Positions 16,228 through 24,612 of a stretch of DNA of 36,410 nt are shown piece after piece; positions within the stretch are counted from its first letter, which is position 1; each line of letters begins with the position of its first letter. Made by a program: the position numbers and the translations under genes. This DNA comes from Oscillatoriales cyanobacterium Centralia_MAG_596 (GTDB lineage: Bacteria; Cyanobacteriota; Cyanobacteriia; Leptolyngbyales; Leptolyngbyaceae): contig JAJPKC010000104.1 in assembly GCA_021323955.1 (NCBI GenBank), positions 1 through 36,410 of the forward strand. The letters are read 5' to 3'. A model generated the notes under the pieces. It did no database searches and had not been told where the DNA came from. It worked only from the letters and a program-made list of their open reading frames with translations.

Positions 16228-18432
16228 ATGCTAGGAATCCTGTTAAACGGACGCTATCGAGTCATTCAGGCATTAGGTAGCGGTGGGTTTGGCCAAACCT
16301 ATGTCGCAGAGGATATTCTGCAACCCGATTGCCCTAAGTGCGTCATCAAGCAATTTAAGCCTGCCCGACAAGATCAGGAGTTTTTGCACATTGCTCGGCG
16401 TCTGTTTGCAACTGAGGTCGAGACGCTGCGAAAGCTGGGTGGTCATGACCAAATTCCCGCTCTCCTGGATGATTTTGAAGAGAACCAGGAGTTTTATCTG
16501 GCGCAGGAGTATGTGGAAGGACAGGCGCTTAGCGATGAGATTGCGGCTGTGGATCGACTGGATGAATCGATCGTGGTCGATATTCTCAAGGATGTGCTGA
16601 ATGTTCTGGAGTTTGTCCACCAAAATCATGTTATTCACCGCGATATCAAGCCGGGAAACCTGATTCGACGGCGGCGCGACGGCAAGATCGTGCTGATTGA
16701 CTTTGGCGCTGTGAAGGAGATCCAGACTCAGATTACAACGGTGTTTCCAGGACAGACCAATCTCACTGTTGGCATCGGTACTCAAGGGTATGGGCCGAGT
16801 GAGCAGATGATTGGTAAACCGCGTTATAGCAGCGATTTGTATGCCCTGGGCATGACCGCTATCCATGCACTAACAGGGCTGCAACCATTTCAGCTACCGA
16901 CGCACCCTGAAACTGGTGAAGTCATCTGGCGTGACCAGGCTCGGGTGAGCACTGAGCTGGCCGCAATTTTGACTAAAATGACCCGCTATCACTTCAGTCA
17001 GCGCTACCAGTCTGCACAAGCAGCGCTGTATGCACTGGAGCATCCCACGGAAATTGTGGCTGATCAAACGCAGTTACCACAGACATTGCCAGAATACCCA
17101 TCGACGGAGCCCTGGTACATTGCGCCCGATCGCCCCGGCCCCATTCCAGCAGGCCAGTCTGCACTATTGCAGTCGCCGCCTGTCCGGGAAGGATTGCGCG
17201 ATCGCATTGCCGGTAAACGACCGCGCAGCCCAATGCGGGCTTCTCTGTTTATCGGTATGGCCAGCGTGGTTGTGACTGGACTCACTATGGGCATTCGCCA
17301 GATGGGATGGTTGCAGCCATTAGAGCTTGCGGTTTATGACCGTATGGTGCAGTTCCGTCCTGACCCCGGCCCCGATCCGCGGCTACTGGTAGTCGGTATC
17401 ACTGAAGCGGATATTACGGCAGAGAAGCAATTTCCCATATCTGATCGCACCCTGGCGCGTGTGCTAGGCGTGCTTCAACGCAGTAAGCCCAGAGTAATTG
17501 GGCTGGATCTCCTCCGCAACATCCCGCAAGAACCGGGTCGCTCCGATCTGTTAGCGGCACTCAATTCGCCCAACGTCATCGCCATTACTAATTTGGGGAG
17601 TGCAAGTGTGCCAGCAACACCGGCACCAGCCGTCATGCCATTTAGTCGCATTGGGTTTAACGATTTTGTGCTGGATCCAGGTGATATTGTTCGGCGTAAT
17701 TTGCTGTTTGCCGATAGCAATGAAACGGCAGACCAGAGTACGACAACGTTCTACTCATTTTCCCTGCGTCTGGCACTTGCGTATCTGGCAGCGCAGCAAA
17801 TTTCGTTCCAACCGCGCGCCAATAATCCAGACGTGTTTCGGTTGGGCAAAGCCCAATTTAAGCCTTTAGAGAGTCAGTCAGGCGGCTATCAGGCGATCGA
17901 CGCACGCGGCTACCAGATCATGCTTCAGTATCGAAGTCGCACGATCGCGCGGCAGGTAAGCCTGAGTGCCGTTTTGCAGGGCACAGTGCCGATGGAATGG
18001 ATTAAGGATAAGGTCGTCCTGATTGGGACGACGGCTCCCAGTGGCAAGGATCTATTTTCTACGCCCTATAGCTCTGCCAGCGTTGATACACCCAGGATGG
18101 CAGGTGTACTGGTCAATGCCCAGATGGTCAGCCAAATCTTGAGTGCAGCCCTGGATGGTCAGCCGTTGCCCTGGTTTTGGCGCGGGTGGGTGGAGGTTGG
18201 CTGGATTGCAACCTGCGCGGCGATCGGTGGGATGTTGGCATGGTTCGTGCGCCAACCGCTAGCTTTAGGGCTGGCTGGCACAGCGCTTTTGGCGATCACG
18301 ATCGCCGTTGGGTGGGGTATTTTTCTCGATCAAGGATGGATCCCAGTGGTTGCGCCGGTGTTTGCGGCAACGGCTACTGGTGGCGTTGTGATTGCCTACC
18401 GTGGCTACTGGGCACAGCGGGATCTGGCATGA
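16228..18432 (+). CDS. serine/threonine protein kinase with C-terminal CHASE2 sensor domain
   Basis: The 734-residue protein begins with a complete Hanks-type kinase (residues ~10-270): glycine loop GSGGFGQTY, ATP-binding Lys 41 in CVIKQFK, catalytic Asp 139 in VIHRDIKPGNL, metal-binding Asp 158 in LIDFGAVKE, and GTQGYGPSEQ in the P+1 region. A Pro-rich linker leads to a membrane helix near 340-357 and then a CHASE2 domain (~358-640; YDRMVQFRPDPGPDPRLLVVG, GLDLLRN, DKVVLIGTTA). Three more membrane helices follow (~655-725). So a cytosolic kinase is joined to an extracytoplasmic sensor, an arrangement well represented in cyanobacteria. The stop overlaps the ATG of the transporter gene (ATGA), so the two are co-translated. 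The ligand is unknown. Confidence 0.94.
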   Translation: MLGILLNGRYRVIQALGSGGFGQTYVAEDILQPDCPKCVIKQFKPARQDQEFLHIARRLFATEVETLRKLGGHDQIPALLDDFEENQEFYLAQEYVEGQALSDEIAAVDRLDESIVVDILKDVLNVLEFVHQNHVIHRDIKPGNLIRRRRDGKIVLIDFGAVKEIQTQITTVFPGQTNLTVGIGTQGYGPSEQMIGKPRYSSDLYALGMTAIHALTGLQPFQLPTHPETGEVIWRDQARVSTELAAILTKMTRYHFSQRYQSAQAALYALEHPTEIVADQTQLPQTLPEYPSTEPWYIAPDRPGPIPAGQSALLQSPPVREGLRDRIAGKRPRSPMRASLFIGMASVVVTGLTMGIRQMGWLQPLELAVYDRMVQFRPDPGPDPRLLVVGITEADITAEKQFPISDRTLARVLGVLQRSKPRVIGLDLLRNIPQEPGRSDLLAALNSPNVIAITNLGSASVPATPAPAVMPFSRIGFNDFVLDPGDIVRRNLLFADSNETADQSTTTFYSFSLRLALAYLAAQQISFQPRANNPDVFRLGKAQFKPLESQSGGYQAIDARGYQIMLQYRSRTIARQVSLSAVLQGTVPMEWIKDKVVLIGTTAPSGKDLFSTPYSSASVDTPRMAGVLVNAQMVSQILSAALDGQPLPWFWRGWVEVGWIATCAAIGGMLAWFVRQPLALGLAGTALLAITIAVGWGIFLDQGWIPVVAPVFAATATGGVVIAYRGYWAQRDLA

Positions 18433-19366: not shown

Positions 19367-20185
19367 ATGAGCGTTGAAACTTATCATGACCCCGTCGCTA
19401 AACTGCTGACCTATGGCAATTGTCATGAGATGGATCTGAATGACTGGCCTGACTATCCCGCAACCGTTGGCCTTACAGACGCGGATATTCCAGAGCTAAT
19501 TCGCATGGCAACTGATCCAATGCTGTGGGAATTGGAGAGTGAACAGCTTGAAGTTTGGGCACCCATTCATGCGTGGCGATCGCTCGGACAACTGCAGGCC
19601 GAAGCGGCGATCGCTCCACTCACCCAACTATTTCAAGACCGGGACATTGACTGGATGACCGAGGAAATGCCGAAGGTCTATGCGATGTTTGGCCCCAGCG
19701 CCATTCCCGTGTTGGCCGACTATCTTGGCGATCCGACCCACGAGTCGTGGGCACGCAATACGGCGGTTGATTGCCTTAAGGAGATCGCCAAAGCACACCC
19801 CGAACGTCGTGAGGCGTGCATTGCACCCATGCTCAAGCAGTTAGAGGCGTTCACTGACAATGACGATGACCTCAACACGATTTTGATTGGTGACCTGCTG
19901 GATCTCAAAGTAGTCGAAGCCGCACCGCTTATGGAACCTGTGTTTGCCGCCGAGCGCGTTGATGAATTTATGGTGGGCAGTTGGGCCGGGGTGCAGGTAG
20001 AACTGGGACTGAAGCAAGCAACGGACTTTCCACCGGAAGCGCTCAATCCAAAGGTTCCGCCTGCTCTGGCTCAAATGCGACAGTTGCTTGAAACGTTTGA
20101 TGCTCTCAACCAGAAGCCCCAAGGGTTTGGTAAATCGGTGCCGTCAACCGCCAAAAAAAGCGGCAAGAAGAAAAAGAAAAAGTAG
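19367..20185 (+). CDS. HEAT-repeat-like / DUF1186-type protein with lysine tail
   Basis: From ATG 19367 (GCAGGAT just upstream; the frame extends to 19313 without a better start) the protein has 272 residues. Repeated helical pairs such as APIHAWRSLGQLQAEAAIAPLTQLF and PKVYAMFGPSAIPVLADYL resemble HEAT/PBS-lyase repeats. The DWMTEEMPKVYAMFG stretch resembles DUF1186 proteins. The tail is almost pure lysine (KKSGKKKKKK), which could bind nucleic acid or acidic surfaces. It is acidic elsewhere. No signal peptide is seen. It lies 62 bases after the transporter and 64 before the permease start, all in the same direction. Function unknown. Confidence 0.75.
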   Translation: MSVETYHDPVAKLLTYGNCHEMDLNDWPDYPATVGLTDADIPELIRMATDPMLWELESEQLEVWAPIHAWRSLGQLQAEAAIAPLTQLFQDRDIDWMTEEMPKVYAMFGPSAIPVLADYLGDPTHESWARNTAVDCLKEIAKAHPERREACIAPMLKQLEAFTDNDDDLNTILIGDLLDLKVVEAAPLMEPVFAAERVDEFMVGSWAGVQVELGLKQATDFPPEALNPKVPPALAQMRQLLETFDALNQKPQGFGKSVPSTAKKSGKKKKKK

Positions 20186-20249
20186 GTACATGCTTCCCAA
20201 GTGTTGCCGCTATCCTGGAGAATCAAAGCGATCGCATCAATACACTGCA

Positions 20250-21116
20250 ATGGATCCTCAACTTGCTCAACTGGTAGTTAACGGCCTGGCGGTCGGCAGC
20301 ATTATTGCGCTCGCGTCGATTGGGCTGACTCTCACCTACGGCATTCTGCGCCTTTCTAACTTTGCTCACGGTGACTTTATGACCCTCGGCGCGTATCTGA
20401 CCCTGCTGGTCAATACGGCTGGGCTGAATATCTGGCTGTCGATGCTGGTTGGTGCCGGTGTGACTGTATTTGCGGTGCTGCTCAGTGAGCTACTCATCTG
20501 GTCGCCCATGCGCGCGCGGCGGGCAAACTCTACCACGCTGGTGATCATCTCGATCGGGCTGGCACTCTTTGTCCGCAATGGGATTATTTTGGTCTGGGGT
20601 GGTGGTAACCAGAGCTATAATTTGCCCGTTTCAGAAGCGCTGTCGGTCTTGGGGCTACGCATTGCTTACTATGACATTGTAGTCATGGGATTGGCGGTTG
20701 TTGCGATCGCGGCCCTTCATTATCTCCTGCAAAACACGCGCATTGGCAAGGCGATGCGGGCTGTTGCGGATGATATTGATCTCGCTCGCGTCACTGGCAT
20801 TAACGTTGATCGCGTCATTATCTGGACATGGATTATTGCTGGCGGCATGACGGCATTGGGCGGGAGTATGCTGGGGTTAGTAGAAGCTGTCCGTCCCAAT
20901 ATGGGCTGGTTTTTGATTCTGCCCTTGTTTGCCGCCGCCATTCTGGGCGGTATTGGCAACCCTTACGGCGCGATCGCGGGCGCAATTGTCATCGGTATCG
21001 CTCAGGAAGTCAGCACTTACTGGCTACCCCCCGAATATAAACTCGGCGTCGCGCTCATTATTATGGTGCTCGTCCTGCTATTTCGGCCTCAGGGACTCTT
21101 TCGAGGCACCGCATAG
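20250..21116 (+). CDS. branched-chain/neutral amino acid ABC transporter permease, LivH type
   Basis: The 288-residue permease has about eight membrane helices with the LivH hallmarks: LASIGLTLTYGILRLSNFAHGDFMTLGAYL near the front, the cytoplasmic loop TRIGKAMRAVADDIDLARVTGIN, which contacts the ATPase, and GIGNPYGAIAGAIVIGIAQE. ATG 20250 is preferred to the longer frame from 20088 because the added 54 residues overlap the lysine tail of the preceding gene and look non-coding. In cyanobacteria this protein is the NatD-type subunit of the N-I neutral amino acid importer. The partner permease, the ATPases and the binding protein are not nearby, which is common for this split system. Confidence 0.92.
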   Translation: MDPQLAQLVVNGLAVGSIIALASIGLTLTYGILRLSNFAHGDFMTLGAYLTLLVNTAGLNIWLSMLVGAGVTVFAVLLSELLIWSPMRARRANSTTLVIISIGLALFVRNGIILVWGGGNQSYNLPVSEALSVLGLRIAYYDIVVMGLAVVAIAALHYLLQNTRIGKAMRAVADDIDLARVTGINVDRVIIWTWIIAGGMTALGGSMLGLVEAVRPNMGWFLILPLFAAAILGGIGNPYGAIAGAIVIGIAQEVSTYWLPPEYKLGVALIIMVLVLLFRPQGLFRGTA

Positions 21117-21299: not shown

Positions 21300-21443
21300 C
21301 TAAATCTTTAGATAGCCAGCGTAGATTGCCGCTACCAAGAAATTAACACCCAGGAGCAAAAGCGCCCAAAAGGTGCGAAACGGATAGGGAGGATTTCCTG
21401 TTTTGGTGACAGGAGATGCTGGTTTGTTAGCCCGAGCAGTCAT
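21300..21443 (-). CDS. psaX: photosystem I subunit PsaX
   Basis: A 47-residue frame that is easy to miss because of its size. The sequence ends FRTFWALLLLGVNFLVAAIY then AGYLKI, which closely follows the PsaX protein known from thermophilic and some filamentous cyanobacteria (FRTFWAVLLL...NFLVAA). It is a single membrane helix (about residues 23-44) after a polar, Pro/Thr/Lys-rich N-terminus. PsaX sits at the periphery of photosystem I and binds a chlorophyll there. An AAGGAG Shine-Dalgarno seven bases from ATG 21443 supports expression. It lies 124 bases beyond lipA on the same strand. A palindrome at 21491-21507 lies upstream. PsaX occurs in only some cyanobacteria, so it is taxonomically informative. 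Confidence 0.88.
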   Translation of the reverse strand: MTARANKPASPVTKTGNPPYPFRTFWALLLLGVNFLVAAIYAGYLKI

Positions 21444-21490
21444 AGAAAGGCTCCTTTGAGGTTGACTTCTTAAGACATACCAAAGATTGT

Positions 21491-21507: not shown

Positions 21508-21567
21508 TTGGATGAATCTTAACGTCCCCCAGTAATCTTACTCATCCTACCTTTGGCCAGGTTTTGC

Positions 21568-22596
21568 TCAAGGCTCCTCGCCCGCATGGTAAGAACTCCG
21601 GACGAGCGGCCCTGATCGTACGTGTGCAAAGCCCATGTCACGCGCGATATCGCCCAACCGCTCAAATTCCTCCGGCGTCCAGTATTTCTGCACCGGTAAG
21701 TGCTCCAGCGACGGACGCATATATTGCCCGATCGTCACGCGATCGCAGCCCACGGCCCGTAAGTCCATTAGCGTCTCGATGATCTCGGCATTGGTTTCGC
21801 CATGCCCCAGCATCAGCCCCGACTTGGTAGGAATGGTTGGATCCAGCGCTTTGACTGTCTCTAAAACGCGCAGCGATCGCGCATACTTGGCCCCGCGCCG
21901 CACTGGCCCCTGTAGCCGTTTCACGGTTTCAATATTGTGGTTGTAGCAGGCCGGTCGAGCATTCACCACGACGGCAATTCGCTCCTGCTGCTGCGCATCC
22001 GGGTCGCCACCCTCTCGCCCACCCCAGAAATCAGGCGTCAATACCTCCACCTGTACGGCTGGATTGCTGTGGTGAATCTGGGCGATCGTGCGGGCAAACC
22101 ATTCCGCGCCCTGATCCGGTAAATCATCGCGTGCTACCGAAGTCAGTACGACATAGCGCAAGCCCAGTAGCCTTACCGATTCTGCCACTTTTTGCGGTTC
22201 ATCTGGATCGATCGGCATGGGTGCGTGCCCTTTGTCCACCTGACAAAACCCGCATGAGCGGGTGCAGGTTGGCCCCATCAGTAGAAACGTCGCTGTCTTC
22301 TGGGCATAGCACTCCCCCCGATTGGGACAGCGTCCTTCCTCGCAGATCGTGTGAATCTGACGCTGCTTGATGATTTGCTGTACGGTGGAAAGCTCACTCG
22401 CTTTACCGATCGGACGTCTCAACCACTCTGGCAGGCTACCAACCGCTAAGGGGTGACGCACCGCCAACAAATCAGACGAATTTGTTTCAGTAGTCATAAA
22501 GTTGGGAATACTACCCGTAGAACAGGATGCTGACTCTGGTACTGTCTCAAATTCTAAAGGATTGGAGCTAGTATCAGAGTCAGCTCGATGTCGCAT
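21568..22596 (-). CDS. lipA: lipoyl synthase
   Basis: LipA inserts two sulfur atoms into octanoyl groups on lipoyl domains using radical SAM chemistry. The SAM-cluster motif is C111TRSC115GFC118. The auxiliary cluster cysteines C85, C90 and C96 appear in [12 protein letters not shown], and the C-terminal SSYHA supplies the serine that ligates that cluster. Length from ATG 22596 is 342, longer than the usual ~290-310. ATG 22497 ([11 protein letters not shown]) would give a standard-length protein, so the first 33 residues may not be translated. The gene is transcribed toward psaX. Cyanobacteria often carry two LipA paralogues and only one is here. Confidence 0.95.
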
Positions 22597-23964: not shown

Positions 23965-24612
23965 TTATTTCTTCGTAGATGCCATTTTTTTCGATGCCAT
24001 TTTTTTCCGTAAGAGACAGCCGGCACCAAATGTGACAGCGCCCAACACGGTTGTCGGTTCGGGGACGCCTTCAGACTGGGGTTGTAATGCCGCAACCCAT
24101 GAGCCAGACTCGTTACTCGAACCTGACGCGATCGATTGGATCCAGGAGCCTCCCCAACCGCCAGATTCTGCTGCTTGGCCATCCAGCAGAAGTTGCTTTG
24201 TGCCAGCAAAGGCATCTCCAAAGAACCAGCTATCCGCTAAAAAGGGTTGGGGTGATTTGCCGAACCGCTGTTGCTCTAAACCGCTGCTTGGATCGAGCCA
24301 GGTGACTCCGACGCCTGCCGAAGGAAGGCTCCACTGATTCCCTAAAATCGTTGCGGCAAAGCTCTTCAGTGCGGTGTGGACATTGAACCCTGAAGGCGGG
24401 AGGGGTGAAGGAATATCTGGACTGGTCTGCACAAAAGTAGTGGTACCAGGGTCATAACTAAACTCGCCGCTACCAACTTGAGTTCCCGCCGCGTTAAAAA
24501 AACTGATTCCCCAGGCAACTTCACTGGCCTGGGCAGAATTTGCCTTGACAACGCTCAAACTCAAGGAGATTGCACCCATGACAATAGCCATCTTTTGATA
24601 TTTGATGCCCAT
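23965..24612 (-). CDS. PEP-CTERM sorting-domain protein
   Basis: The 215-residue protein has an N-terminal signal peptide (hydrophobic core IVMGAISLSLSVV, cleavage near ANSAQA at about residues 25-30). It ends in the PEP-CTERM signal: VPEPTTVLGAVTFGAGCLLRK, i.e. the VPEP motif, a membrane helix and a basic tail. Such proteins are exported and processed by an exosortase, often with exopolysaccharide or surface structures. The middle is Gly/Ser/Trp-rich with no named domain. The basic tail carries KKMAS twice because of a 15-bp duplication. A ribosome-binding-like AGGAGAC lies just before ATG 24612. The exosortase is not in this window. Confidence 0.9.
   Translation of the reverse strand: MGIKYQKMAIVMGAISLSLSVVKANSAQASEVAWGISFFNAAGTQVGSGEFSYDPGTTTFVQTSPDIPSPLPPSGFNVHTALKSFAATILGNQWSLPSAGVGVTWLDPSSGLEQQRFGKSPQPFLADSWFFGDAFAGTKQLLLDGQAAESGGWGGSWIQSIASGSSNESGSWVAALQPQSEGVPEPTTVLGAVTFGAGCLLRKKMASKKMASTKK
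23978..24007. repeat. 15-bp tandem duplication in the PEP-CTERM tail
   Basis: On the plus strand GATGCCATTTTTTTC occurs at 23978-23992 and again at 23993-24007. On the coding strand this is five codons (KKMAS) repeated in frame, with A7 tracts that are prone to slippage. Confidence 0.95.

Follow-up and report, generated by a model that had tools for sequence, protein, structure and literature searches.

A conserved psaX gene beside lipA in a Stenomitos/Leptolyngbya-like cyanobacterium

Introduction

The locus described here raises the question of whether a 47-codon open frame in the gap between lipA and a permease gene encodes PsaX, a small subunit of photosystem I (PSI). It lies in a 36,410-nucleotide stretch of DNA from Oscillatoriales cyanobacterium Centralia_MAG_596 (contig JAJPKC010000104.1), which is called the window. 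Its nearest named relatives are Leptolyngbya sp. FACHB-321, Stenomitos frigidus ULC18, Stenomitos rutilans and Leptolyngbya sp. ES-bin-22, and the host is therefore a Stenomitos/Leptolyngbya-like cyanobacterium. In published structures PsaX sits on the PsaB side of PSI, where its neighbours are a cluster of chlorophylls and a phosphatidylglycerol, and it has been proposed to help stabilise red chlorophylls (PMC7940658, PMC8689207, PMC3903132); in PSI lacking PsaX its place is occupied by chlorophyll B40 (PMC3903132).

Results and discussion

Identity of the 47-residue protein

The frame occupies positions 21300-21443 on the minus strand and comprises 47 codons and a stop, with an ATG start (translation MTARANKPASPVTKTGNPPYPFRTFWALLLLGVNFLVAAIYAGYLKI). 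The Shine-Dalgarno sequence AAGGAG can be read 7 bases 5' of the ATG (minus strand, 21456-21451), and a site of this kind is kept at the same start position among relatives of the genus. A preliminary description made from the letters of this DNA had reported a 47-codon minus-strand frame with an AAGGAG site next to lipA; its coordinates were exact, and lipA, read from the same strand, indeed ends 124 bases 5' of the frame. The gene is present as a single copy in the whole genome.

Frames of 47 codons are short, and the window holds many unrelated ones of such length, as would be expected if this one were a chance frame in the lipA-permease gap that only resembles psaX. However, the product matched the Pfam family PsaX (PF08078) with 60.8 bits and E = 1.2e-16 over profile positions 3-31 of 35 (curated cut-off 25 bits), and no PsaX match was found in 14 control genomes. 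Among the PsaX chains in the PDB, nine distinct sequences were matched at E values of 5.7e-11 to 3e-9 and a tenth, a short chain, at 3e-4; all but one of these matches are named PsaX or photosystem I 4.8K protein. The product has a single hydrophobic helix of PsaX length, in keeping with membership of PF08078. A search of the frame against NCBIfam returned no matching model, and pipelines relying on NCBIfam alone could therefore miss genes of the psaX type.

The exception among the matched PDB sequences, chain W of 8vu3, has 36 residues and a Thermosynechococcus-like PsaX sequence yet is named 'Phosphorylase', apparently a naming error at deposition.

The likeness to PsaX proposed in the preliminary description held, while its restriction to the second half of the protein did not: residues 11-46 span full-length Thermosynechococcus PsaX (36-39 residues, with the whole of 10eg_W/6tra_X aligned), and only about ten N-terminal residues, common to the genus, are additional. 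With PsaX of Thermosynechococcus elongatus/vulcanus (1JB0, 6TRA, 6K33), whose 36 residues are aligned in full, the product shares the single hydrophobic helix, the chlorophyll-ligand Asn and the entry motif PxYxFRxxWA, whereas its C-terminus reads GYLKI instead of FGILK. N-termini of other PsaX proteins are often longer as well, and the Nostocaceae type also has 44-45 residues; Anabaena/Nostoc PsaX (6JEO, 6TCL) likewise carries the longer N-terminus but ends in FHII(E/D/Q), where the present product has AGYLKI.

Conserved residues and purifying selection

Residues Y20, R23, A27, L30, L31, N34 and Y41 did not vary among 31 PsaX sequences, which came from several families. The helix has no Asn other than Asn34, a candidate chlorophyll ligand that aligns with the PsaX residue Asn23, which ligates a chlorophyll in the structure of the thermophilic Thermosynechococcus PSI-IsiA complex (PMC7214436). 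Within the genus, psaX is under strong purifying selection: among seven genomes dN was 0.04-0.12 and dS 0.5-2.8, dN was well below dS in all pairs (21/21), and substitutions fell mostly at third codon positions.

Membership of the family leaves room for a protein with another placement or role. Acaryochloris marina NIES-2412 has a PsaX2 of about 20% identity to PsaX, which is tilted and forms Trp hydrogen bonds; its published place at PsaB is similar, a role with red forms is suggested for it, and it shows that the family position can host variants (PMC13251853). Compared by its description, PsaX2 has two Trp contacting chlorophyll d, while the present product has one Trp and is a typical PsaX. 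The product is, moreover, about 46-73% identical to typical PsaX outside the genus, Asn34 is invariant, this psaX copy is not a divergent one, and the same genome carries a PsaB loop of the PsaX type (see below). We therefore regard a PsaX2-like placement or role as extremely improbable and a typical PsaX as the preferred reading.

Gene order and upstream elements

Upstream of psaX lies lipA, encoding lipoyl synthase (21568-22596, minus strand; TIGR00510, 352.1 bits against a cut-off of 310.25), which is the conserved upstream neighbour. Convergent to psaX is a livH-like gene for an ABC permease of the branched-chain amino acid/urea type (20088-21116, plus strand; PF02653, 179.8 bits), whose product scored under the equivalog cut-offs of both UrtB and LivH. 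The order of lipA and psaX facing a convergent permease gene was found at 28 of 58 loci in one psaX set and at 54 of 80 in another, the two sets overlapping partly, and further psaX loci have just one of the neighbours, lipA or the permease. Nostocaceae-type loci share the complete order, whereas neither lipA nor the permease adjoins psaX at loci with the Thermosynechococcus-type sequence. In the examined genomes of the same family that lack psaX, neither psaX nor the permease gene was detected behind lipA.

The presence of psaX at this position in further genera and families, taken together with the profile match and purifying selection, rules out the chance-frame explanation, to which we assign practically no probability. 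The frame is almost certainly psaX and its product the single-helix subunit PsaX of PSI, an identification first made in the preliminary description and now backed by PF08078, solved PsaX chains, the ligand Asn, purifying selection, gene order and the PsaB loop. It is a genuine conserved gene and an ordinary member of a known, patchily distributed family. That PsaX occurs in only part of the cyanobacteria, as had also been stated, agrees with our sample, where 112 of 390 genomes of the class scored above the cut-off.

Two conserved elements precede the gene on the minus strand. The first, TTTGGTATGTCTTAA (21470-21484), is promoter-like and conserved in the genus and in other families; the window has one copy of it, where 0.02 would be expected with one mismatch allowed. 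Its counterpart at two Thermosynechococcus-type loci reads TTTGGTATAAT, which suggests that it is a probable extended -10 element. The second, GACGTTAAGATTC (21514-21526), was identical at 13 of 13 bases across seven genus members while its flanks had diverged, and may be a regulator site. A scan with the sigma-70 consensus found no promoter for psaX, and the case for a promoter is therefore one of conservation only; psaX would have a promoter to itself, some 30-45 bases before the start codon, and would probably not depend on lipA for its transcription. The terminator scan returned a single terminator-like site, inside psaX on the opposite strand and at chance level.

Concordance with a loop of PsaB

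The genome contains one psaA-psaB pair, on a contig (C235) separate from that of psaX. Its PsaB (P0002, used for residue numbers) is closest to PsaB from PsaX-containing PSI (9l0a, 1jb0), and its loop, SKKGLLSPSSEGQFNLPHQ, contains the PsaX-type stretch SEGQFNLPHQ. The Glu-Gly motif of PsaB loop D has been proposed as a predictor of PsaX (PMC8689207), and this signature is present here.

A conserved gene could still be intact but disused, or be expressed under special conditions only. Set against this are strong purifying selection among seven members of the genus, the conservation of the start, ribosome site and upstream elements, and a PsaB loop of the PsaX type in this genome, and we consider it very unlikely in comparison with a psaX in ordinary use.

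Every one of the 31 PsaX-positive genomes in which the PsaB loop is covered carries a wider loop signature (M297, K301, E310, N314, L/M315, P316 and Q318), against none of 26 PsaX-negative genomes; one row, L153, is a PsaA and was left out. On a tree of PsaB from which the loop was excluded, the loop trait changes five times, always jointly with psaX, and three of these changes are forced by well-supported branches. The well-supported independent pairs number three, all concordant for psaX and the loop (sign test, p 0.25); the concordance thus extends the published sample and is not significant once relatedness is counted. Another loop, PsaB 490-496, which supports red chlorophyll B1233, was considered as a PsaX marker and rejected, as PsaX-positive and PsaX-negative genomes alike vary in it.

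One reading, to which we give even odds, is that cyanobacteria at large gain and lose psaX jointly with the PsaB loop, the two forming one exchangeable antenna module whose psaX part resides at the lipA-permease site; if it is true, the state of the red-chlorophyll edge of PSI could be read from a genome. The co-occurrence of Glu-Gly with PsaX is already published (PMC8689207); the novel parts would be the wider signature of the loop, its clean concordance with psaX inside one family, and the conserved locus with its promoter element.

Proposed role in photosystem I

The coding gene, its family membership, the conserved ligand residue and the concordance in PsaB loop type are established for psaX and add one more firmly supported case, in a Leptolyngbya-like genome. 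From published PsaX structures we infer the position of the product, its chlorophyll and lipid contacts and its effect on red chlorophylls. Its single helix most likely spans the thylakoid membrane on the PsaB side of PSI, packed against a phosphatidylglycerol and loop 306-320 of PsaB, with Asn34 most likely ligating one chlorophyll. In this position it would most likely steady adjacent low-energy ('red') antenna chlorophylls and hold the PsaB-side antenna cluster. Inside this one family, psaX is present in some genera and absent from others, and such close relatives with and without PsaX, each with the matching PsaB loop, would be useful material for relating PsaX to red chlorophylls.

Additional observations

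In a genome of the same family (G017), a divergent PsaX-like frame (MTKTKSIGNVTPHTSDVITGLIIFLSINFLVAAMYHHIINP, L030:1495-1647) scored 27.4 bits with PF08078, just above the cut-off; its first half is unmatched, and the PsaB loop of that genome is of the PsaX-negative type. This frame may encode a second PsaX-like subunit of divergent sequence, for which Acaryochloris PsaX2 is perhaps a parallel. Genome G061 has a similar partial PF08078 match, and three genomes of family f25 (G058, G072 and G085) have two psaX-family matches each, a typical one of 59-64 bits and a weaker one of 31-39 bits, the latter in an 82-residue frame.

Elsewhere in the window, a 215-residue protein encoded at 23965-24612 (minus strand) has a C-terminal VPEP motif, is without a Pfam match and scored 21.3 bits, just below the NCBIfam cut-off of 21.6, for the cyanobacterial PEP-CTERM sorting domain. 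A 734-residue protein encoded at 16228-18432 (plus strand) combines a serine/threonine kinase domain with a CHASE2 sensor domain.
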